This document shows, piece by piece, positions 1 through 63,035 of a DNA stretch of 64,000 nucleotides. The number at the start of each line of letters is the position of its first letter. Positions within the stretch are counted from its first letter, which is position 1. The position numbers and the translations under genes were made by a program. The stretch is from Hydrogenoanaerobacterium saccharovorans. GTDB taxonomy: Bacteria > Bacillota > Clostridia > Oscillospirales > Ruminococcaceae. Below the pieces are notes generated by a model. That model worked only from the letters and a program-made list of their open reading frames with translations. It was not told the DNA's origin and ran no database searches. The stretch spans positions 372,001-436,000 of the forward strand of contig NZ_JACSNR010000001.1 in NCBI RefSeq assembly GCF_016901815.1, read 5' to 3'.

Positions 1-334
1 GCACGCCGTCACCGTCTGCATCCTTGCGGTCCCAGGACAGACGCTCATACTCAGTATTGGTATCGCCCTGTACAACCTGCTCGTCGATCTCAGTGCCGGG
101 TACAGTCAGCCAGCCCACAACATCATTGTTGACAGCAAAGGCTGCGTTGATGTTGTCCAGAACGGTCTGCTCCGGCTCTACCGGATCACCGCTGGTGGGT
201 TCAGTGATGGGGTTGGAAATGCTGGAATCCTCACTGCTGCCCCGGTCACCGGTGCAGGAAGTCAGGGAAAACACCATAACGCCGCACATAGCCAGCGCAA
301 TGGCCTTACGAATGAATGAGTTCTTTGTTTCCAT
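1..334 (-). CDS. Sortase B-like lipoprotein, N-terminal part (runs off the window)
   Basis: The ATG at 334-332 overlaps the pyk stop codon by one base (TAATG), with AAAGGAG seven bases upstream inside pyk, so translation is probably coupled. The first 25 residues form a basic, then hydrophobic signal ending in a lipobox (L-T-S-C), followed by a Ser/Pro/Glu-rich linker. From about residue 66 the sequence reads NNDVVGWLTVPGTEID, the start of the class B sortase fold (family consensus D-V-V-G-W-I-x-I-P-G-T-x-I-D). The catalytic His, Cys and Arg lie beyond position 1 and cannot be checked. A sortase-like protein anchored by a lipobox instead of an N-terminal transmembrane helix is unusual. Alternatively it could be a non-catalytic sortase-fold lipoprotein. 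Confidence 0.75.
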   Translation of the reverse strand, partial: METKNSFIRKAIALAMCGVMVFSLTSCTGDRGSSEDSSISNPITEPTSGDPVEPEQTVLDNINAAFAVNNDVVGWLTVPGTEIDEQVVQGDTNTEYERLSWDRKDADGDGV

Positions 335-2103
335 TACTCTTCTCCTTTAAGTTCGCTATTGTTTCGGGAGGCCGCATTGTATACCAGGCCCTGGGATGCG
401 TCCACTCCCACCGAGATCCCGCCCCGCAGGATCTTGGTGGCATCTGTGGCTCCCACGATTACCGGAATGGCACGGGTGATCTCCTCCGTGTCAAAATCCA
501 GCTCCTCGGCTTCGGTAATCAGTCCGGAGGCCTTGCCAAGCAGGTCCAGAAGCGGTTTCCCGATTGCAGGTATTACTAATATATCATTTTGTTTGAATTT
601 CTGCAATGCCTCTTCCGCATTTTTTGCAACACAAAGATTGCCAACCGTTTTATGGCTGTTGAGCCCTCTGCCGCGCACCAGGCTGTATCCCGCTACCGCC
701 ACCTTGAGCAGGTTGGTGGTGCCGGGAATGCCCAGCGGCACACCGGCTGTGAGCACAACCAGATCCCCATCCCGGCAGAGCCCTTCCTTCATGGCAGCTG
801 CTACTGCCGCGTCAAAGAGCTCATCGGTGCTGGACTTCATCTGCATGATGATGGGAGTCACACCCCAGGCCAGGCTGAGCTGACGGAACACTTCCTTGGA
901 AGTGGTGCAGGCAATGATCGGTACACCCGGACGGAACCGGCTGCACATCCGGGCCGTCTGGCCCGACTGAGTCACACTGATGATCGCCGCCGCATTCAGA
1001 TCGTATGCCGTGGTACAGGTGGCATGGGAAATGGCATTGGTCACATCATCCGGATGGTAGTCATGGCTGTAAAACCGCCGGCGGTAGTCAATATCCTGTT
1101 CGGTGCGCCGGGCAATGGTTGCCATGGTCGCCACCGCTTCCACCGGATATTTGCCTGCCGCGCTCTCACCCGAGAGCATGATGGCACTGGTGCCGTCATA
1201 GATGGCATTGGCAACATCATTGGCCTCCGCCCGGGTGGGACGGGGGTTATTACTCATCGACTCGAGCATCTGGGTGGCAGTGATCACATGCTTGCCTGCC
1301 ATGTACGCCTTCTTGATCAGCGACTTCTGATGGATCGGCACATCTTCCAGCGGGATCTCCACGCCCATATCACCCCGGGCTACCATGACACCGTCCGAAA
1401 CCCGCAGGATCTCGTCGATGTTTTCCACGCCCTCGGCATTCTCGATCTTGGAGATGATCTTGATGCGGCGCCCGCCATGTTCCTCCAGGAACCGGCGCAT
1501 CTCACCCACATCTTCGGCAGTGCGCACAAAGGACGCCGCCACAAAATCAAAGCCGGTTTCAATGCCGAAGAGCAGATCCTGCTTGTCCGCTTCACTGAGG
1601 AAGGGCAGTGTCAGATGCACACCCGGCACATTGACACCCTTGCGGTTGGAAACCCTGCCGCCGCTCTTGACTGTGGTGTGGATCTCCCCCTTGTCGGTGA
1701 TATAATCCACCGTCAGTTCGATCAGACCGTCGTCGATCAGCACCCGGCTGCCCGGACGCAGATCCCGGCCCAGTCCGCCATAGGTGATGTAGGAACGTTC
1801 CTCTGTACCCGGCACCTGTTCCGGTGTCAGGATAAAGTGCGCGCCCGGCTGCAGCATAACCGCACCGTTTTCAAACACACCCAGCCGGATCTCCGGGCCC
1901 TTGGTGTCCAGCATGGTACCGATGGGGAGGCCGAGTTCCTCCCGCAGGCGATCCACAATCCGGAACTTTTCCAGATGTTCCTCATGGGTGCCATGGGAGA
2001 AATTGAACCGGGCCACATCCATACCCGCTTCCATCATACGCCGGAGAGTTGCCTCATCGGAACTGGATGGCCCCAGCGTACAGATAATCTTTGTCTTGCG
2101 CAT
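334..2103 (-). CDS. pyk: Pyruvate kinase with extra C-terminal domain
   Basis: Cytoplasmic glycolytic enzyme converting PEP and ADP to pyruvate and ATP. The product is 589 residues, starting MRKTKIICTLGPSS. It carries the metal and substrate loop VMVARGDMGVEIP (around residue 240), ITATQMLESM (around 280), and a C-terminal extension of about 110 residues ending in a PEP-utilizer-like swivelling domain (VIPAIGKPLLDL). That extra domain is typical of Firmicutes Pyk, usually 585-590 residues. I chose ATG 2103 over an upstream GTG at 2118 because GGTGA sits eight bases before it and the product then matches the family N terminus. The sortase-like gene follows with a one-base overlap. Confidence 0.97.
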   Translation of the reverse strand: MRKTKIICTLGPSSSDEATLRRMMEAGMDVARFNFSHGTHEEHLEKFRIVDRLREELGLPIGTMLDTKGPEIRLGVFENGAVMLQPGAHFILTPEQVPGTEERSYITYGGLGRDLRPGSRVLIDDGLIELTVDYITDKGEIHTTVKSGGRVSNRKGVNVPGVHLTLPFLSEADKQDLLFGIETGFDFVAASFVRTAEDVGEMRRFLEEHGGRRIKIISKIENAEGVENIDEILRVSDGVMVARGDMGVEIPLEDVPIHQKSLIKKAYMAGKHVITATQMLESMSNNPRPTRAEANDVANAIYDGTSAIMLSGESAAGKYPVEAVATMATIARRTEQDIDYRRRFYSHDYHPDDVTNAISHATCTTAYDLNAAAIISVTQSGQTARMCSRFRPGVPIIACTTSKEVFRQLSLAWGVTPIIMQMKSSTDELFDAAVAAAMKEGLCRDGDLVVLTAGVPLGIPGTTNLLKVAVAGYSLVRGRGLNSHKTVGNLCVAKNAEEALQKFKQNDILVIPAIGKPLLDLLGKASGLITEAEELDFDTEEITRAIPVIVGATDATKILRGGISVGVDASQGLVYNAASRNNSELKGEE

Positions 2104-22240: not shown

Positions 22241-23683
22241 TTACTTCTTGGCGCCCATGGGACGGGGCTTTACACCTGCCGGAATGGGGCAGACATAGCC
22301 GTCTCCCACCCGGGCCGCATGCTCTGCCTTGGCCTTTTCCAGCAGCTCCGGGGACTCGAACAGATCAATGGCAGTTCCAGCCATGACCCGTCCGGCCTGA
22401 AGCATGGCGGCATGGGCCACCGGTGCCTTGCCCTGGGCTACCAGCTGCCAGGAATGTCCGGGAGTACCCGAAGCATAGCAGGCGGTATTCACCTGGGCAG
22501 TGGGACAAACCCAGCTCACATCGCCCACATCGGTGGAACCAGCCATTGCCAGCTCCGAAGAGTGATAGGGCACAATGAAATCGTTGAGCGGATCGCCCAG
22601 ATGCTTCCGGTAGAGCTCCTTCTCAGCGGGATCAGTGGCCTTGTCCAGCAGGGCTGCCACGGTGTCGCTCTTGTTCTCGATGCTCTCCCGGATCTGACGG
22701 GCAAATTCCCGGTCAGCGTCGGTGTGCTCCGGCAGGCCGGCTTCACACAGGTTCTTGTAGATCAGCTCCTCCATCACCGTATTGGGGATCAGGTTGGAGC
22801 AGGCTTTGTAGAAATCAATGGTCAGGTCGGTTTCGGTCATCATAGCCGCACCCTGGGCGATCTTGTTCACCCGGGCATAGATCTCCTGCACCTGGGCATT
22901 CTTGGGCGCCCGGATCAGATAGAGCACCTCGGCCTCCGGCTGCACCACATTGGGGGAATAACCGCCGGTATTGGTGATGGCATAGTGGATGCGTGCCTCC
23001 GGGATCACATGCTCCCGCAGGAACTGCACGCCCATGTTCATCAGTTCCACGGCGTCCAGGGCACTCCGGCCCAGATGGGGCGCCGCCGCTGCATGGGCTG
23101 CCACACCCTTGAAGTGGTAGGCCACCTGCACATTGGCAAGGCTGCTGCCGGTCATAACGGCATTGAGATCCGAAGGGTGCCAGGCCACAGCGGCATCCAG
23201 CTCGTCAAAGACGCCCTCCCGGGCCATGAATGCCTTGCCCGAACCGCCCTCTTCACCGGGGGTGCCGAAGTAGACCACCGTACCGCTGTGTCCGGTGTCC
23301 TCCAGGTACTTCTTGACGCCTACGGCGGCGGCAATGGAACCCACGCCGAACATATTGTGTCCACAGCCGTGACCGGCGGCGCCGGGACAGAGCGGCTCCC
23401 GAACCGCGCAGCCCGCCTTCTGGCTCAGGCCGGACAGGGCATCGAACTCGCCCAGGATACCGATCACCGGCTTGCCGCTGCCATAGCGGGCGGTGAAGGC
23501 GGTTTCAATGCCAGCCACCCCACGGGTGACGGCAAAGCCCTCCTTTTCCAGCTGCCGGCAGAGTGCCTCTGCCGACTGATGCTCGGTAAAGGCCAGTTCC
23601 GCATAGTCCCAGATGGCGTCGCTCAGCGCCGCAAACTCGGACGCTTTGGAATCAATCACCTCATACACTGCTTTTTTATCCAT
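22241..23683 (-). CDS. M20 family amidohydrolase (AbgB-like)
   Basis: 480 residues; ATG 23683 with GGAG eight bases upstream. Motifs of M20D zinc hydrolases are present: ILGEFDALSGLSQKAG, AAGHGCGHNM (metal Cys/His, around 111), FGTPGEEGGSGKAFM (catalytic Glu), WHPSDLNAVM, GVAAHAAAAPHLGRSALDAV and SSELAMAGSTDVGDVSW. The closest named relatives are subunit B of p-aminobenzoyl-glutamate hydrolase and similar N-acyl-amino-acid hydrolases. It sits directly downstream of a GltS-type symporter, which suggests import followed by hydrolysis. A paralogue faces away at 26102. Substrate not determined. Confidence 0.88.
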   Translation of the reverse strand: MDKKAVYEVIDSKASEFAALSDAIWDYAELAFTEHQSAEALCRQLEKEGFAVTRGVAGIETAFTARYGSGKPVIGILGEFDALSGLSQKAGCAVREPLCPGAAGHGCGHNMFGVGSIAAAVGVKKYLEDTGHSGTVVYFGTPGEEGGSGKAFMAREGVFDELDAAVAWHPSDLNAVMTGSSLANVQVAYHFKGVAAHAAAAPHLGRSALDAVELMNMGVQFLREHVIPEARIHYAITNTGGYSPNVVQPEAEVLYLIRAPKNAQVQEIYARVNKIAQGAAMMTETDLTIDFYKACSNLIPNTVMEELIYKNLCEAGLPEHTDADREFARQIRESIENKSDTVAALLDKATDPAEKELYRKHLGDPLNDFIVPYHSSELAMAGSTDVGDVSWVCPTAQVNTACYASGTPGHSWQLVAQGKAPVAHAAMLQAGRVMAGTAIDLFESPELLEKAKAEHAARVGDGYVCPIPAGVKPRPMGAKK

Positions 23684-23791
23684 GATACAGGCTCCTTCCA
23701 TCGGTTCTCCCCTGCCCCATACCCGGGACAGGAGCTGTATTGATACCTTTATTTATTGTAGCACGCTTTTTCACCGGGGAAAAGCGCTGCT

Positions 23792-25237
23792 TCAGTCTGC
23801 CAGAGTGGCGGTCTCCGCTGCGGGCGCAGTCCGGCGGGCGCTGACCCGGCTGCCCACAGTCACAACTGCCAGGATGGCCCAGAACACACCGGTCACAGCC
23901 AGCGAGAACAGGAAGTTCGCCATGGTGCTGCCCGAGGCGATCACTGCCAGGGTCAGGGGAGTGGTGATCAGGCCGGACAGGGACAGCAGCGAGAAGCCCA
24001 TGGAGAAGTCGGCCAGAGCGGGGGTCTCATAGTCGGGATCGCAGATCTTCAGGAGCATCATACCGGTGATCATAACGCCGGTGGCAGTACCCCAGGCAAT
24101 GATGGAACGCTCAAAGGCATAGTCGCCTTTGTAGACGATGTCCCCCAGCTTAAATACGAAGATGTAGGTGAGTACAAAACCGATAGCGCACATTACCAGG
24201 ATGGGCACAGCATACTCCATAACGGCCTCAACGGGCAGGCTGGCGATGGCGGCAGTAATGGCGAAGTCGGACATGGCACCGGAAATCCGGCTCTTGACCT
24301 TGGTATCGATGGCCCAGTCGAGGCCCAGCTTGATGATGAGGTGGTTGACGCCGAACATGATAACCATGGCATAGATCCACACGGGCATGCTGGAGAAGGC
24401 GGAGATACCGGTCTTGGCGAGGAGATCCAGCAGGCCATAGGCAGCGCCGCAGACGCCGAGAATGATGGCAAGGTGCAGGGAGATGGTCTCGATGGTGGAG
24501 GGCATGAAGGTCTCACGGCCCATGGAGGCGTGACGGCTGGTGTCGGCTACATAGCCCCTGGACATCTCAGCGGGAATATCGCCGGGCTTCTTGAGGACGG
24601 CGGTCTTACCCTTGGCAGCGGCGATGTTGATGAAGATGATGCCCAGCAGCATACCGCCGATGATGCCGATGGTGGCAGTGGTAACCGCTACGCCCTGAGC
24701 GGTAGCCCAGTAATCCAGGCCCAGGCCCTCAAGGATCTTGCCCACAGCGCCGGCAGTGCCGTGACCGCCGCAGAAGCCCTGGCTCAGCTCATAGCCGAAG
24801 GTGCGGTAGAGATCATAGTCACCGGTGCTGCTGAAGAACAGGTTGGTTCCGAAGCCGATGGCGGACTGCATGAAGCTCAGTGCCGCAAACAGGGCGAAAG
24901 CCTTGAGCACATTGGGAGCGGTCTTTTTGCCGCTCTCGGCCTTGGGGGAACGGTTCATGAACATTCCCAGGGGAACCGCCGCAAAGATGGGAACGATCAG
25001 GGTGCCGGGCAGCAGCGACCAGTCGTTGATGTAGGTCTCAGGTACCCGGAGAATGGCATAATCACCCAGAATCATCGGCCCGAGCAGCAGTCCGATGAAG
25101 CCGCCGATCACCGATGCGGGCAGGAAGAGTTTCTGGAACAGTTTGACCTTGGCCCGCAGGAAGGTCCCCAGCAGAAGCAGGCCGCCGATAATGGAAAGGC
25201 TGCAGAGCAGCTCGGTAAGAAGCGAAGATGTAAGCAT
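23792..25237 (-). CDS. gltS: Sodium/glutamate symporter (GltS family)
   Basis: 481 residues; GGAGG eight bases before ATG 25237. It has about ten to eleven hydrophobic helices. GltS hallmarks appear twice in inverted halves: FLPASVIGGFIGLLLGP and FCGGHGTAGAVGKILEGLG in the first, SDFAITAAIASL and FERSIIAWGTATGVMITGM in the second. It carries glutamate or a related anion with sodium into the cell. Beside an AbgB-like hydrolase it might import glutamate conjugates instead, but that is inference. Its leader holds a terminator hairpin and a Gln-rich ORF. Confidence 0.9.
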   Translation of the reverse strand: MLTSSLLTELLCSLSIIGGLLLLGTFLRAKVKLFQKLFLPASVIGGFIGLLLGPMILGDYAILRVPETYINDWSLLPGTLIVPIFAAVPLGMFMNRSPKAESGKKTAPNVLKAFALFAALSFMQSAIGFGTNLFFSSTGDYDLYRTFGYELSQGFCGGHGTAGAVGKILEGLGLDYWATAQGVAVTTATIGIIGGMLLGIIFINIAAAKGKTAVLKKPGDIPAEMSRGYVADTSRHASMGRETFMPSTIETISLHLAIILGVCGAAYGLLDLLAKTGISAFSSMPVWIYAMVIMFGVNHLIIKLGLDWAIDTKVKSRISGAMSDFAITAAIASLPVEAVMEYAVPILVMCAIGFVLTYIFVFKLGDIVYKGDYAFERSIIAWGTATGVMITGMMLLKICDPDYETPALADFSMGFSLLSLSGLITTPLTLAVIASGSTMANFLFSLAVTGVFWAILAVVTVGSRVSARRTAPAAETATLAD

Positions 25238-25255: not shown

Positions 25256-25292
25256 ACAAAAAATGGGACTGTGCTTTGCATCGCACAGTCCC
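25256..25292 (-). terminator. Terminator hairpin in the gltS leader (candidate attenuator)
   Basis: Minus-strand GGGACTGTGC, 8-base loop, GCACAGTCCC, then ATTTTTTG, ending about 19 bases before the gltS start codon. Its position suggests conditional termination, or separation of the upstream small ORF from gltS. Confidence 0.75.
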
Positions 25293-25419
25293 TACACAAC
25301 AGTTTATAGATTTGCTATAAAGCTGCCTTGGGATTCACATGGCGTTTCAAAGACTTGAGCCCGCTGGCCCTCGTCTTTTATCCGCCCCTGCCAATTCCCT
25401 TGCAGCAAGGCGTTTTCGC

Positions 25420-25563
25420 TTAAGCCAGCGCCTTATTCTGATTTCGTTCGGTCCGCTGCTGTCGCTGCGGCTGCTGTTCAGGCAGCACAAACTGGCAGGA
25501 CTGCTGGCCCTGCTGTCGATTGGCATTATTCCGTACGAAATCAAAAGATCGGTCGCTAAGCAT
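25420..25563 (-). CDS. Glutamine-rich small ORF upstream of gltS, 47 residues
   Basis: ATG 25563 with AAGGAGG nine bases upstream; stop TAA at 25422-25420. The product starts MLSDRSFDFVRNNANRQQGQ and contains 11 Gln in 47 residues, mostly in pairs, with many Arg and Asn, so it is hydrophilic and probably unstructured. A consensus promoter precedes it and a terminator hairpin lies between it and gltS. The last codons (CGCTGGC) can pair with GCCAGCG downstream, as in leader-peptide attenuators. It may be a regulatory leader peptide sensing glutaminyl-tRNA, or simply a small protein gene. No family recognised. Confidence 0.5.
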   Translation of the reverse strand: MLSDRSFDFVRNNANRQQGQQSCQFVLPEQQPQRQQRTERNQNKALA

Positions 25564-25642
25564 GAGTGAAAACCTCCTTCTGGCTTTTGCTTTTTGGATA
25601 GACCGCTGCCGCCTTTTTGCACCGGCGGCTGGTTTATGTTTT

Positions 25643-25670
25643 ATTATACACACTTTGCTTCGCTTTGCAA
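25643..25670 (-). promoter_or_regulatory. Promoter of the Gln-rich ORF (and perhaps gltS)
   Basis: TTGCAA (25670-25665), 16 bp, TATAAT (25648-25643) on the minus strand, about 70 bases before the ORF. Confidence 0.6.
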
Positions 25671-26101: not shown

Positions 26102-27508
26102 ATGGGCAAGCAGAATATCAAGGCAAATATTGCCAAGCACAGAGAAGCTCTGGAAAAGATGGCTCTGGACATCTGGGCAAAGCCGGAGGCCGGCTTCCGT
26201 GAGTTCAATGCCACCAAGCTGCAGCAGGATTATCTGAAGAATATGGGAGCTAAGATCACTTCACCGGTGGATGTGGTTGAAACTGCTTTCATCGCTGAGT
26301 ATGGCAGCGGCAAGCCGATCATCGGTATTCTGGGTGAGTTCGATGCTCTGCCCGGTCTGAGCCAGAAGGCCGGCCTGACTGTTCAGGACCCGCTGGAGCC
26401 GGGTGCTTATGGTCACGCCTGCGGTCATAACCTGCTGGGTACAGCCGGTGTACTGGCATTCGCCGCTCTGATGGATACCATGAAGGAGGAAAATCTCCCC
26501 GGCACCCTGCGCTTCTATGCCTGTCCGGCAGAGGAGAACCTGTCCGGTAAGTCCTATATGGCAAGAGCCGGCGTCTTCAACGACCTGGATTGCTGCCTGA
26601 CCTACCATCCGGGCAACCAGGACGCAGTCAGCGGCGGCAGCAACAATGCCTATACACTGATGGAATTTTACTTCAAGGGTATCCCCGCTCATGCCGGCGG
26701 CGCTCCGTGGCTGGGCCGCAGCGCCCTGGATGCCGTAGAACTGATGAACGTGGGCTGCAACTACCTGCGTGAACACATCATCGACGGCGGCCGGATGCAC
26801 TATATCATCATCGACGGCGGTATGGCTCCCAACATTGTGCCCGCTACCGCTGCGGTACGGTACTCGGTACGCGCTCCCAAGATGGATCAGATGCAGGATA
26901 TTGTCCGCCGCCTGATCCTCTGCGCGGAAGGCGCTGCCCACATGACCGAAACCACCATGACCTACTCGGTCAAGAGTGTCATGCACAACATGATGCCCAA
27001 CTACACCATGAACGAAATTATGTATGAGAACCTCTGCCAGGTAACTCCCACCGAGTTCACCGACGAGGAAAAGAAGTTCATGGACGACATGGTTGCCACC
27101 TATGCTCCCGAAGCCATCGCGGCTGCCTGCAAGCAGTACGGATTCAGCCCGGCGGAACTGGAGCATGGCATGCGCATGAAGCCGGTTCTGTACGGCGACA
27201 AGAGCCAGTGCGGCGGCGGCAGCACCGATGTGGGCGATGTCAGCTACATCACCCCCACTGCCCAGTTCACCACAGCCTGTGCTCCCATTCCCGTATCGGC
27301 TCACACCTGGCAGTCCTGTTCCTGCTATGGTACTTCGGTTGGTACCAAGGGCATGATCCGTGCCGGCGAAGCTATGGCACTCACCGGCTATGACCTGTTC
27401 ACCGACAAGAAGGATGTCATTGAAAAGGCCAAGGAAGAGCTGAAGGCCGACCTGGATGGCGCCACCTACACCCCCATCCCCGATGACATGATGCCTTACT
27501 ACGATTGA
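26102..27508 (+). CDS. M20 family amidohydrolase (AbgB-like), second copy
   Basis: 468 residues; AAAGGAG nine bases upstream of ATG 26102. Same motif set as its neighbour: ILGEFDALPGLSQKAG, AYGHACGHNLLG (metal site, around 105), YACPAEENLSGKSYM, YHPGNQDAVSGG, GIPAHAGGAPWLGRSALDAV and GGGSTDVGDVSYITP. The GGGSTDVGDVS signature recalls AbgB and related carboxypeptidases. Many codons are T-ending (GGT, GCT), unlike the C/G-ending neighbours, which may mean high expression. It is transcribed alone, with its own promoter and terminator. Substrate unknown; an N-acyl amino acid or aminobenzoyl-glutamate is the best guess. Confidence 0.88.
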   Translation: MGKQNIKANIAKHREALEKMALDIWAKPEAGFREFNATKLQQDYLKNMGAKITSPVDVVETAFIAEYGSGKPIIGILGEFDALPGLSQKAGLTVQDPLEPGAYGHACGHNLLGTAGVLAFAALMDTMKEENLPGTLRFYACPAEENLSGKSYMARAGVFNDLDCCLTYHPGNQDAVSGGSNNAYTLMEFYFKGIPAHAGGAPWLGRSALDAVELMNVGCNYLREHIIDGGRMHYIIIDGGMAPNIVPATAAVRYSVRAPKMDQMQDIVRRLILCAEGAAHMTETTMTYSVKSVMHNMMPNYTMNEIMYENLCQVTPTEFTDEEKKFMDDMVATYAPEAIAAACKQYGFSPAELEHGMRMKPVLYGDKSQCGGGSTDVGDVSYITPTAQFTTACAPIPVSAHTWQSCSCYGTSVGTKGMIRAGEAMALTGYDLFTDKKDVIEKAKEELKADLDGATYTPIPDDMMPYYD

Positions 27509-27596: not shown

Positions 27597-27634
27597 TTGA
27601 CAGCAGACGCGGAAATGCGGTATAATTTACCGCA
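27597..27634 (+). promoter_or_regulatory. Promoter with overlapping palindromic operator
   Basis: TTGACA (27597-27602), 18 bp, TATAAT (27621-27626). The perfect 7-bp inverted repeat TGCGGTA/TACCGCA (27616-27622 and 27628-27634) covers the -10, so a bound protein would block transcription of the ECF S-component gene. I do not recognise the regulator. Confidence 0.65.
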
Positions 27635-27656
27635 GAAACTTCACAGGAGGAACATT

Positions 27657-28202
27657 ATGACATCACAGAACATCCGTGTCAAAAACCTGGTGATGGCTGC
27701 GCTGTTCACCGCCATCGGAGTTGTGCTGCCCCAGGCTTTCCACATGATCCCCAACGCGGGAAGCATTATTCTGCCCATGCACATTCCCGTTCTCATCTGC
27801 GGCATGACTGTGGGTGGTTTTTACGGTGCCATTGCCGGAGCCCTCACTGTTTCCCTTTCCATTCTCATCAATGGAATGCCCCCGCTCTTCCCCACCGGTG
27901 TCTGCATGATCGTGGAACTGGCTGTGTATGGCCTGGTATCCGGCGTGGCCTATAAGGCCCTCGGCTGCCGCATGAACCGCAAGCGCACCTATGCAGCTCT
28001 GATCATCGCCATGCTGGCTGGCCGTGCCGCCAATGGCCTGGCAATGACTGCCGCTATGGGTATGGCTGGCAAGGCCTATACCCTGCAGGCATTCCTCACT
28101 GCCGCATTTGTCACCGCTCTGCCCGGCATCATCATTCAGCTGGTGCTGATCCCGCCGGTTGTGATGGCTCTGGAAAAGACCCATCTCACCGCAAATGCCT
28201 GA
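27657..28202 (+). CDS. ECF transporter S component
   Basis: 181 residues; AGGAGG six bases before ATG 27657. Five or six membrane helices. The N terminus contains MAALFTAIGVVLPQAFHMI and ILPMHIPVLICG, the pattern of a substrate-binding S subunit for energy-coupling-factor transporters. The shared A/A'/T energising module is not in this window, so it must use one encoded elsewhere. The vitamin or metabolite is not predictable. A folate-type substrate would suit the neighbouring AbgB-like enzymes, but that is speculation. Confidence 0.85.
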   Translation: MTSQNIRVKNLVMAALFTAIGVVLPQAFHMIPNAGSIILPMHIPVLICGMTVGGFYGAIAGALTVSLSILINGMPPLFPTGVCMIVELAVYGLVSGVAYKALGCRMNRKRTYAALIIAMLAGRAANGLAMTAAMGMAGKAYTLQAFLTAAFVTALPGIIIQLVLIPPVVMALEKTHLTANA

Positions 28203-28252: not shown

Positions 28253-28429
28253 CATGTGACAGGTACACTTGTAAAAACGAACACCCTGGACAGGGCAGGC
28301 GATGGACAGACTTCCGCTCCCGATTTCTGTATCTTCACATTGTGTTCCTTGCTCTCCTGCCAGTTTTTTGCAAAGAACACATGTGGGCAGGCACACCTGT
28401 AAAAACGAACACCCCGGACAGGGCAGGCG
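28253..28429. repeat. Imperfect 41-bp direct repeat, two copies 128 bp apart
   Basis: Copies at 28261-28301 and 28389-28429 match at 38 of 41 positions; all three changes are T to C. Both are preceded by CATGTG (28253, 28380). The shared core reads GTAAAAACGAACACC. The stretch 28240-28635 otherwise has no gene I can support, so this looks like a fragment of an interspersed non-coding repeat. Confidence 0.75.
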
Positions 28430-30724: not shown

Positions 30725-32506
30725 TTACTTGTCGTCCTGAACCCGGATATGCAGTACATCCAGATCCTTCTGATCCACCGGCGACGGGCAGTCGGTCATC
30801 AGGTCGCTGGCGTTCTGTACCTTCGGGAAGGCAATGACTTCCTTGATGGAATCCTTGCCCAGCATGAGCATTACCAGACGGTCCAGACCGTAAGCCATAC
30901 CACCATGCGGCGGTACGCCGTACTTGAAGGCGTTCAGCAGGAAGCCGAACCGCTCCTGGGCCTGCTCATCGGTGAGGCCGATGGCCTCGAACATCTTCTG
31001 CTGGATCTCGGGGTCGCTGATCCGGATGGAACCGCCGCCCAGCTCTACGCCATTGAGGACAATATCATAGGCACGGGCATAGGTGTGACCGGGATCGCTC
31101 AGCAGCTTGTCCACATCGCTGAGCTTGGGCGAGGTGAAGGGATGGTGCATGGCTACCCAGCGGCCTTCCTCCTCGTCATATTCGAACAGCGGGAAGTCGG
31201 TTACCCACAGGAAGTCGAAGGTGCCTTCCTCATAGAGGTGCAGCATCTTAGCCAGATGGTTGCGCAGAGCGCCCAGGCTGTCGAATACCACCTTGTTCTT
31301 GTCTGCCACGATGAGCAGCACGTCGCCTTCCTCGGCGCCCATACGCTCATGGATGGCCTTGACCTCGTCCTCGGTGAGGAACTTCTCGAAGGAGGAGGAT
31401 ACACCGTCAGCGGTGAACCGGGTGAAGGCCAGACCCTTGGCACGGTAGGTCTTGACGAAGTCGGTGAGCTTGTCGATCTCCTTACGGGTCAGAGTGGCGG
31501 CAGCGCCCTTGACATTAATACCGCGGACGCTGTAACCCTCGGCAGTGGCGCCGGCAAATACCTTGAATTCGGTGTTCTTCAGAAGGTCGGTGAGGTCGCA
31601 CAGCTCCAGGCCGAACCGGGTATCCGGCTTGTCCACACCGTAACGGCTCATTGCCTCATCGTAAGGCATCCGGCGGAAGGGAGTCTGTACCTCCACACCC
31701 AGTACCTCATGGAATACCTTCTTGATGAAGCCTTCGTTCATGGTCATAACATCTTCTTCGTCCACAAAGGACATCTCGATGTCGATCTGGGTGAATTCCG
31801 GCTGACGGTCGGCCCGGAGGTCCTCATCACGGAAGCAGCGGGCAACCTGCATATAGCGGTCATAGCCCGAGAGCATCAGCAGCTGCTTGTAGAGCTGGGG
31901 CGACTGGGGCAGAGCATAGAACTCGCCGGGGTGTACACGGGAGGGCACCAGATAGTCACGGGCGCCTTCGGGGGTGGACTTGATGAGCACCGGGGTTTCG
32001 ATCTCCACAAAATCGTTCTTATCGAAGTAGTCACGGGCGATCTTGACGATGCGGTGACGGGCCATCAGAGCCTGCTGCATGGGGCTGCGGCGCAGGTCCA
32101 GATAGCGGTACTTGAGGCGCAGTTCCTCCTTGACATTGGTGTTGTCCACGATCTCGAAAGGCGGGGTCTCGCTCTTTGCCAGTACCCGCAGATCGGTCAC
32201 TTCGATCTCCACCTCACCGGTCTTGATCTCCTTGTTCACCGATTCACGGCGGCGCAGAACACCCTTCGCCATGAGGACATATTCGCCCCGGACACCGGCT
32301 GCCTTCTCAAAGATGGCACGGTCGGTCTTGTCGCCGAAGGCCAGCTGAACCACACCGCTGCGGTCCCGCAGGTCAATAAAGATCAGATTTCCCAGGTTGC
32401 GTGCCCGCTGTACCCAACCGGACACTACCACTTCACTGCCAATGACGGCCTCAGTCACTTCCCCGCAGTAATGGGTACGCTTGAGACCCTGCATTGTATC
32501 TGCCAT
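30725..32506 (-). CDS. aspS: Aspartyl-tRNA synthetase, bacterial type
   Basis: 593 residues; GAGGAG upstream of ATG 32506. It has an N-terminal OB-fold anticodon domain (VSGWVQRARNLGNLIFIDLRDRSG), class II motif 2 (FRDEDLRADRQPEFTQIDIE), the bacterial GAD insertion (about 290-420), and motif 3 (HGGMAYGLDRLVMLML). Charges tRNA-Asp with aspartate. It lies 61 bp downstream of hisS in one unit led by a T-box. Confidence 0.98.
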   Translation of the reverse strand: MADTMQGLKRTHYCGEVTEAVIGSEVVVSGWVQRARNLGNLIFIDLRDRSGVVQLAFGDKTDRAIFEKAAGVRGEYVLMAKGVLRRRESVNKEIKTGEVEIEVTDLRVLAKSETPPFEIVDNTNVKEELRLKYRYLDLRRSPMQQALMARHRIVKIARDYFDKNDFVEIETPVLIKSTPEGARDYLVPSRVHPGEFYALPQSPQLYKQLLMLSGYDRYMQVARCFRDEDLRADRQPEFTQIDIEMSFVDEEDVMTMNEGFIKKVFHEVLGVEVQTPFRRMPYDEAMSRYGVDKPDTRFGLELCDLTDLLKNTEFKVFAGATAEGYSVRGINVKGAAATLTRKEIDKLTDFVKTYRAKGLAFTRFTADGVSSSFEKFLTEDEVKAIHERMGAEEGDVLLIVADKNKVVFDSLGALRNHLAKMLHLYEEGTFDFLWVTDFPLFEYDEEEGRWVAMHHPFTSPKLSDVDKLLSDPGHTYARAYDIVLNGVELGGGSIRISDPEIQQKMFEAIGLTDEQAQERFGFLLNAFKYGVPPHGGMAYGLDRLVMLMLGKDSIKEVIAFPKVQNASDLMTDCPSPVDQKDLDVLHIRVQDDK

Positions 32507-62834: not shown

Positions 62835-63035
62835 CTGCGCGATTCCTGCTGTGTTCGCCTATAAGCTGTTTTATTTAATCCAACATGTTTAATTAGGGAG
62901 CTACGCTCCACCGGCAGACTTCAGACCTCCCGCCCCCAGGGCGGAAGAAGGGAGGACGAAACCGGCGGGCAGGCACCCACCTGTCTTTACGATGGGTTAC
63001 AATCATCAGCATTACGGCACAGCGGGTTTCTTTTA
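62835..63035 (+). ncRNA. ssrS: Probable 6S RNA
   Basis: The segment between DUF1292 and tcdA has no frame but folds into a long rod. A closing stem CCTGCTGTG (62845-62853) pairs with CACAGCGGG (63018-63026), enclosing about 180 nt, the size of 6S RNA. Inside is a weakly paired, AU-rich 5' strand (TTCGCCTATAAGCTGTTTTA) like the promoter-mimic bubble, and an apical stem with CCTCCC/GGGAGG and GCCC/GGGC. A terminator follows. In Bacillus, 6S RNA bsrA also lies just upstream of the tcdA homologue yrvM. 6S RNA sequesters sigma-A RNA polymerase. Exact ends uncertain. Confidence 0.6.

Follow-up and report, generated by a model that had tools for sequence, protein, structure and literature searches.

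A conserved glutamine- and asparagine-rich leader ORF and terminator upstream of a GltS-type transporter gene, a candidate attenuator in Hydrogenoanaerobacterium saccharovorans and another genus

A short unit comprising a glutamine- and asparagine-rich open reading frame (ORF) and an intrinsic terminator precedes the gene for a GltS-type transporter in the window, the 64,000-nucleotide stretch of DNA analysed here from Hydrogenoanaerobacterium saccharovorans, a gut member of the Clostridia, and this unit is real, conserved and lineage-restricted. It is likely that the leader regulates gltS in cis. The best reading of its mode of action, a tentative one that draws on sequence comparison, is that it is a variant of the leader-peptide attenuator, acting in cis on gltS or on the gltS-amidohydrolase operon and sensing the charging of Gln-tRNA together with Asn-tRNA. 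The features that are new here are the Gln/Asn content, a long hairpin that encloses the ORF, and the lack of an evident antiterminator.

Organization of the leader locus

The elements of the locus in the window genome (G000) all lie on the minus strand, in the order promoter, Shine-Dalgarno (SD) sequence, ORF, terminator and gltS:

25670-25643, minus strand: promoter TTGCAA-16-TATAAT, from a pattern scan, with a repeat- or palindrome-like spacer
25573-25579, minus strand: SD sequence AAGGAGG of the leader ORF, with an SD at the matching place in all four leaders
25420-25563, minus strand: leader ORF of 47 codons (ATG at 25563, stop ending at 25420), 11 Gln and 5 Asn, with relatives in G002, G102 and G241
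25402-25583, minus strand: P1, a long hairpin enclosing the ORF (duplex -49.7 kcal/mol), in which the SD/start region (about 25583-25522) is base-paired to the final codons and to RNA after the stop (about 25460-25402)
25349-25378, minus strand: P2, a hairpin 3' of the stop codon (AAAGAC...GTCTTT), from RNA folds
25258-25292, minus strand: intrinsic terminator, from a pattern scan, with a 10-bp stem GGGACTGTGC/GCACAGTCCC at 25292-25265 and a T-run to 25258
23792-25237, minus strand: GltS-type transporter gene (ATG at 25237; PF03616 Glt_symporter, E = 3e-13, 49.7 bits)
22241-23701, minus strand: M20 amidohydrolase, the next gene of the operon after gltS (TIGR01891, 268.6 bits)

The promoter, the 47-codon ORF with its AAGGAGG and 11 Gln codons, and the terminator hairpin just before the gltS start had each been proposed in an initial annotation of this DNA, and all are present; every one of the 11 Gln codons is CAG. 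With the terminator directly ahead of gltS and only 20 bases between the end of the T-run and the gltS ATG, transcripts from the leader promoter must cross the terminator. The Pfam score of the predicted transporter exceeds the gathering cut-off of 26 bits. Solved relatives of the M20 amidohydrolase include Xaa-Arg dipeptidase, HmrA, an aminobenzoyl-glutamate utilization protein and N-alpha-acyl-glutamine aminoacylase, and the substrate is thus not fixed by these similarities.

Conservation and distribution of the leader

The leader DNA matches two of the three genomes of the genus, the window's own included. In the congener (G002) the ORF MRYARYFDFANNANRQQGNQQMSCVFVQPQQPNQRQQRQRNQNNALA lies between the same promoter and a terminator ahead of an orthologous gltS, and in a genome of another genus (G102), the GltS of which is about 70% identical, the ORF MSLASGLFIGLFVYEQNNNQQGNQQLACQVELQENENNCNNEQNLIYKLNSSNDLRLSLV and a terminator again precede the orthologue. 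A fourth ORF, MSLIRDLLISLFVYEQGNNQQGNQQLAC in G241, runs into a contig end; its upstream neighbour gene is that of G102, gltS begins at the edge of a separate contig, and we infer that the two are linked. The promoter hexamers with their 16-nt spacing are identical in all four leaders, an SD and an ATG are present in all four, and both the stop codon and the terminator are found in the three complete leaders, that of G241 being cut by the contig end. In each of the four, the promoter spacer resembles a palindrome or repeat (TTGCAAAAATTTTTGC in G102 and G241, TTGCAAAGCGCTGCAA in G002) and is possibly a repressor site. In G000, G102 and G241 an amidohydrolase gene comes next after gltS; in G002 it does not, and an M20 gene is found upstream in divergent orientation instead. 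The window, too, has a second, divergent M20 gene at 26102-27508.

Among the genomes searched, the leader was found only upstream of this clade of gltS. At E <= 1e-60, 6 of 297 family genomes have a relative of GltS, and not every GltS-type gene comes with the leader: that of Merdimmobilis hominis (G006), 69% identical, lacks it, and Pygmaiobacter massiliensis (G165) likewise has none. When the upstream regions of 26 of 28 GltS loci were scanned (L023, which starts inside gltS, and L046, a partial match, were set aside, and L026 offered just 304 bases), the leader appeared only in L020 and L021, which duplicate the contigs of G002 and G102 and are not counted as extra cases. A profile built from the four leaders gave nine matches at E <= 0.05 in 396 family genomes, with convincing copies in only four genomes (E <= 3.4e-12); the weak matches in G108, G708, G226, G252 and G196 were rejected, four of them overlapping longer frames and one holding a stop. 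Across 394 genomes of the order the same profile returned the window itself and three weak matches, with no convincing further copy, as all three (G125, G661 and G653) fall within or overlap another gene. None of 118 leader candidates in the viral contigs scanned was confirmed, and two further matches were discarded, a protein match in G041 that lies opposite a longer ORF and a match of G002 C25 in L011, where a run of CAG lies opposite another gene. Within its own genome the leader occurs once; other matches span just 15-40 bases at E 0.14 or worse, and a repeat element was rejected on this ground. Conservation is read from a sample of only four genomes in two genera.

Composition of the leader peptide

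The leader peptide of the window genome reads MLSDRSFDFVRNNANRQQGQQSCQFVLPEQQPQRQQRTERNQNKALA. Its combined share of Gln and Asn (34%) is the highest among the 62 ORFs of the window that follow an SD and span 25-90 codons, the runner-up reaching 15%. Gln and Asn together make up 16 of 47 residues in G000, 20 of 47 in G002 and 20 of 60 in G102 (binomial P 1e-7, 3e-11 and 4e-9, the first against the large ORFs of the window), with respective Gln/Asn counts of 11/5, 12/8 and 8/12. Asn is thus enriched alongside Gln, and its codons are equally prominent in the other genus. A core N-x-N-(R/N)-Q-Q-G-(N)-Q-Q-x-(S/A)-C, gapped in G000, is common to all four leaders, and its Gln pairs, Gly and Cys are invariant. 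The conservation of Gln codons in relatives, on which the original proposal depended, is borne out by these Gln-rich ORFs in two genera, and chance Gln richness was rejected on the binomial enrichment together with the conservation in the second genus. The CAG-rich pattern as such is frequent in the genome (46 forward and 37 reverse occurrences) and uninformative.

Between the ORFs of G000 and G002 the indels preserve the reading frame, and 27 codons are identical, 7 differ synonymously and 10 non-synonymously. Substitutions fall on the three codon positions in the numbers 6, 8 and 9, and as they show no clear third-position bias, the comparison does not separate selection on the peptide from selection on the RNA.

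RNA structure of the leader

The whole leader folds far more stably than its shuffles (z -7), and P1, which ties the SD/start region to the end of the ORF, is its dominant RNA feature. The P1 duplex reaches -49.7, -45.4 and -41.8 kcal/mol in G000, G002 and G102, with none of 300 shuffles as good in any of them. When the amino acids and codon usage were held fixed, only 2, 7 and 0 of 500 synonymous-codon shuffles were as stable, and P1 is therefore more stable than its codons require. The sequences that pair are not the same in the two genera; of 45 ORF pairs compared between G000 and G002, 32 are unchanged, 3 compensatory, 2 one-sided, 5 broken and 3 gapped. In all three full leaders the stop codon is followed by a second hairpin, of the CUUU/AAAG type at the place of P2 in G002 and G102, and then by a strong terminator (-18 to -21 kcal/mol), which occupies the same place in G002 and G102. 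An Rfam search of the leader matched no family, neither T-box nor glutamine riboswitch aptamer, and a known RNA family was rejected as its identity. The window's only Rfam match at the gathering threshold is a 6S RNA (RF00013, 66.2 bits) at 62840-63032 on the plus strand.

Features of a trp-type attenuator that are present here are an SD-led ORF, a conserved codon enrichment and a terminator between the ORF and the gene; an antiterminator that is favoured by stalling and excludes the terminator was not found in the three leaders. A ribosome was modelled at each codon and the RNA ahead of it folded, using equilibrium models and a simple ribosome footprint. At each of the 59 stalls modelled on a Gln, Asn or stop codon, the terminator is predicted still to form with a probability of at least 0.999. 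Its 5' arm has no conserved partner either in the ORF (114, 4 and 199 of 300 shuffles as good in G000, G002 and G102), where a notable pairing occurs in G002 only, or in the RNA after the stop (243, 228 and 26 of 300). The mutually exclusive hairpins that the original proposal envisaged were accordingly not recovered. As for the pairing put forward for them, of CGCTGGC at the end of the ORF with GCCAGCG downstream, both sequences are there, but the strongest duplex between the ORF end and RNA beyond it is at chance level in two of the three leaders and modest in the third (122, 70 and 12 of 300 shuffles as good), and with 122 of 300 shuffles pairing as well in G000 this switch was rejected as a proven element. 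The stop codon lies 127, 130 and 63 nt from the terminator in G000, G002 and G102, and a stalled ribosome is therefore too distant to mask it. Given that no antiterminator is conserved, any link from stalling to read-through must be kinetic or factor-dependent; kinetic folding, a factor, or effects between ribosome and polymerase remain as routes.

Charging of Gln-tRNA and Asn-tRNA

Cells without glutaminyl- and asparaginyl-tRNA synthetases (GlnRS, AsnRS) make both Gln-tRNA and Asn-tRNA by means of GatCAB, with glutamine as the amide donor. GlnRS (TIGR00440) was above cut-off in none of five genomes, the four with leaders and G006, and AsnRS (TIGR00457) in none of the four leader genomes; AsnRS exceeds the cut-off in G006, the sole genome of the five without the leader, and GatB is present in all five. 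Since neither synthetase is recognisable and GatB is present, both tRNAs of the leader genomes are probably charged by transamidation. A shared GatCAB route would explain why a single ORF pools the codons for Gln and Asn. The association of the leader with the absence of AsnRS is weak, because a third of the family lacks the enzyme (above cut-off in 198 of 297 genomes, below it in 99) and the leader genomes represent two genera; G183, a congener of G102, has AsnRS. The window genome carries two bacterial-type AspRS genes, at 30725-32506 (minus strand) and at 224-1981 (minus strand) of L085, and one of them may be a non-discriminating enzyme for tRNA-Asn.

A possible mechanism and its alternatives

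Amide-tRNA charging is the most economical candidate for the signal, and we put it forward provisionally, from composition and gene content. A ribosome would load during transcription and read the amide tract. If Gln-tRNA and Asn-tRNA were plentiful, it would finish, the ORF would close into P1, and the terminator would end transcription. Were the amide aminoacyl-tRNAs scarce, the ribosome would stall in the tract, P1 would not close in the normal way, and more polymerase would read through into gltS. As GatCAB uses glutamine as the amide donor, the tract would report the supply of glutamine or amide nitrogen. If this is true, the leader would tie the import of glutamate-type compounds to the amide-nitrogen state of translation in bacteria that charge both tRNAs by transamidation. 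A more far-reaching version is doubtful: here the switch would read tRNA-dependent amidation itself through pooled Gln and Asn codons and act by way of the ORF-enclosing hairpin rather than a trp-type antiterminator, the hairpin sequestering the SD of the ORF and thereby leaving the sensing to ribosomes that load during transcription.

One alternative, rather unlikely, is that P1 and P2 form a structured element recognised by a ligand, by an antitermination protein or by a modified polymerase, with the ORF secondary. The very strong structure (leader z -7; P1 unmatched by 300 shuffles in all three leaders) and the failure to find a ribosome-compatible antiterminator would both be expected of such an RNA- or protein-sensed leader, whereas the retention of SD, ATG, frame and amide-rich core in all four leaders, a P1 sequence that varies between genera as a ligand pocket would not, and the lack of an Rfam match argue against it. 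The complete promoter-SD-ORF-terminator unit and its strong terminators (-18 to -21 kcal/mol) could also belong to a free-standing short transcript, encoding a small protein or acting as a dual-function RNA, with gltS fed by constant leak-through. This is a shade more doubtful still, as the searched genomes show the unit nowhere but ahead of this gltS clade, the peptide is short, of low complexity and conserved mainly in its core, and 20 bases are too few for a separate gltS promoter.

It is distinctly improbable that the core acts as a TnaC-like arrest peptide, stalling the ribosome on a small molecule rather than on uncharged tRNA: its Gly and Cys are as invariant as its Gln residues, but it lies in the middle of the ORF, ahead of a variable C-terminal half, and its codons form an apical GCAGG/CCUGC hairpin that could explain their conservation. 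A gene for a membrane-like peptide on the opposite strand (a 76-residue ORF at 25339-25569, plus strand) can be largely dismissed, for although Gln and Asn codons reverse-complement to those of Leu, Ile and Val and a hydrophobic in-register antisense reading exists in G000, G002 and, lacking a start codon, G102, its starts are inconsistent (ATG in G000 and TTG in G002, both without an SD, and none in frame in G102), it has no Pfam match, and promoter, SD and terminator all suit the minus strand.

Relation to known leaders

The trp, his and ilv leaders are ribosome-mediated transcription attenuators with a codon-rich leader ORF and a terminator, and the leader-peptide attenuator tentatively favoured here shares with them an ORF rich in particular codons, with an intrinsic terminator and then the regulated gene behind it. 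It differs in that the residues are Gln and Asn, that a transporter gene would be regulated, and that ORF and SD lie inside one long hairpin with no antiterminator alternative found. T-box leaders let Firmicutes sense the charging of tRNA upstream of genes for transporters or biosynthesis; here Rfam finds no T-box match. Glutamine riboswitches comprise the glnA and Downstream-peptide classes, and possible glutamine-linked control in cis is common to them and to the present leader, which, unlike them, has no Rfam match and carries its Gln signal in an SD-led ORF. The closest parallel found is the uORFC-8-2 motif upstream of cysS in Rhodobacterales, in which a uORF with two Cys codons is followed by a terminator and stalling is proposed as the signal (PMC8632094). 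In both, the first stem contains a uORF carrying codons for a single amino acid and a terminator lies behind, whereas the leader described here has many Gln and Asn codons and belongs to gltS in uncultured Clostridia/Oscillospiraceae. The literature searched, which mostly lies outside subscription journals, showed no leader-peptide control for glutamine, or for glutamine and asparagine, and within it the earlier suggestion that this is not a described attenuator stands.

Neighbouring features in the window

Beside the gltS operon lie the divergent second M20 amidohydrolase gene (26102-27508, plus strand) and then a gene for an ECF S component (27597-28202, plus strand) that is weakly FolT-like (34.4 bits, below the cut-off of 60). 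This gene neighbourhood suggests folate or aminobenzoyl-glutamate salvage as a possible function. Two near-identical small hairpins at 28282-28297 and 28410-28425, TGCCCTGTCC(A/G)GGGTG then TTCGTTTTTA, are likely to be copies of a short repeat.
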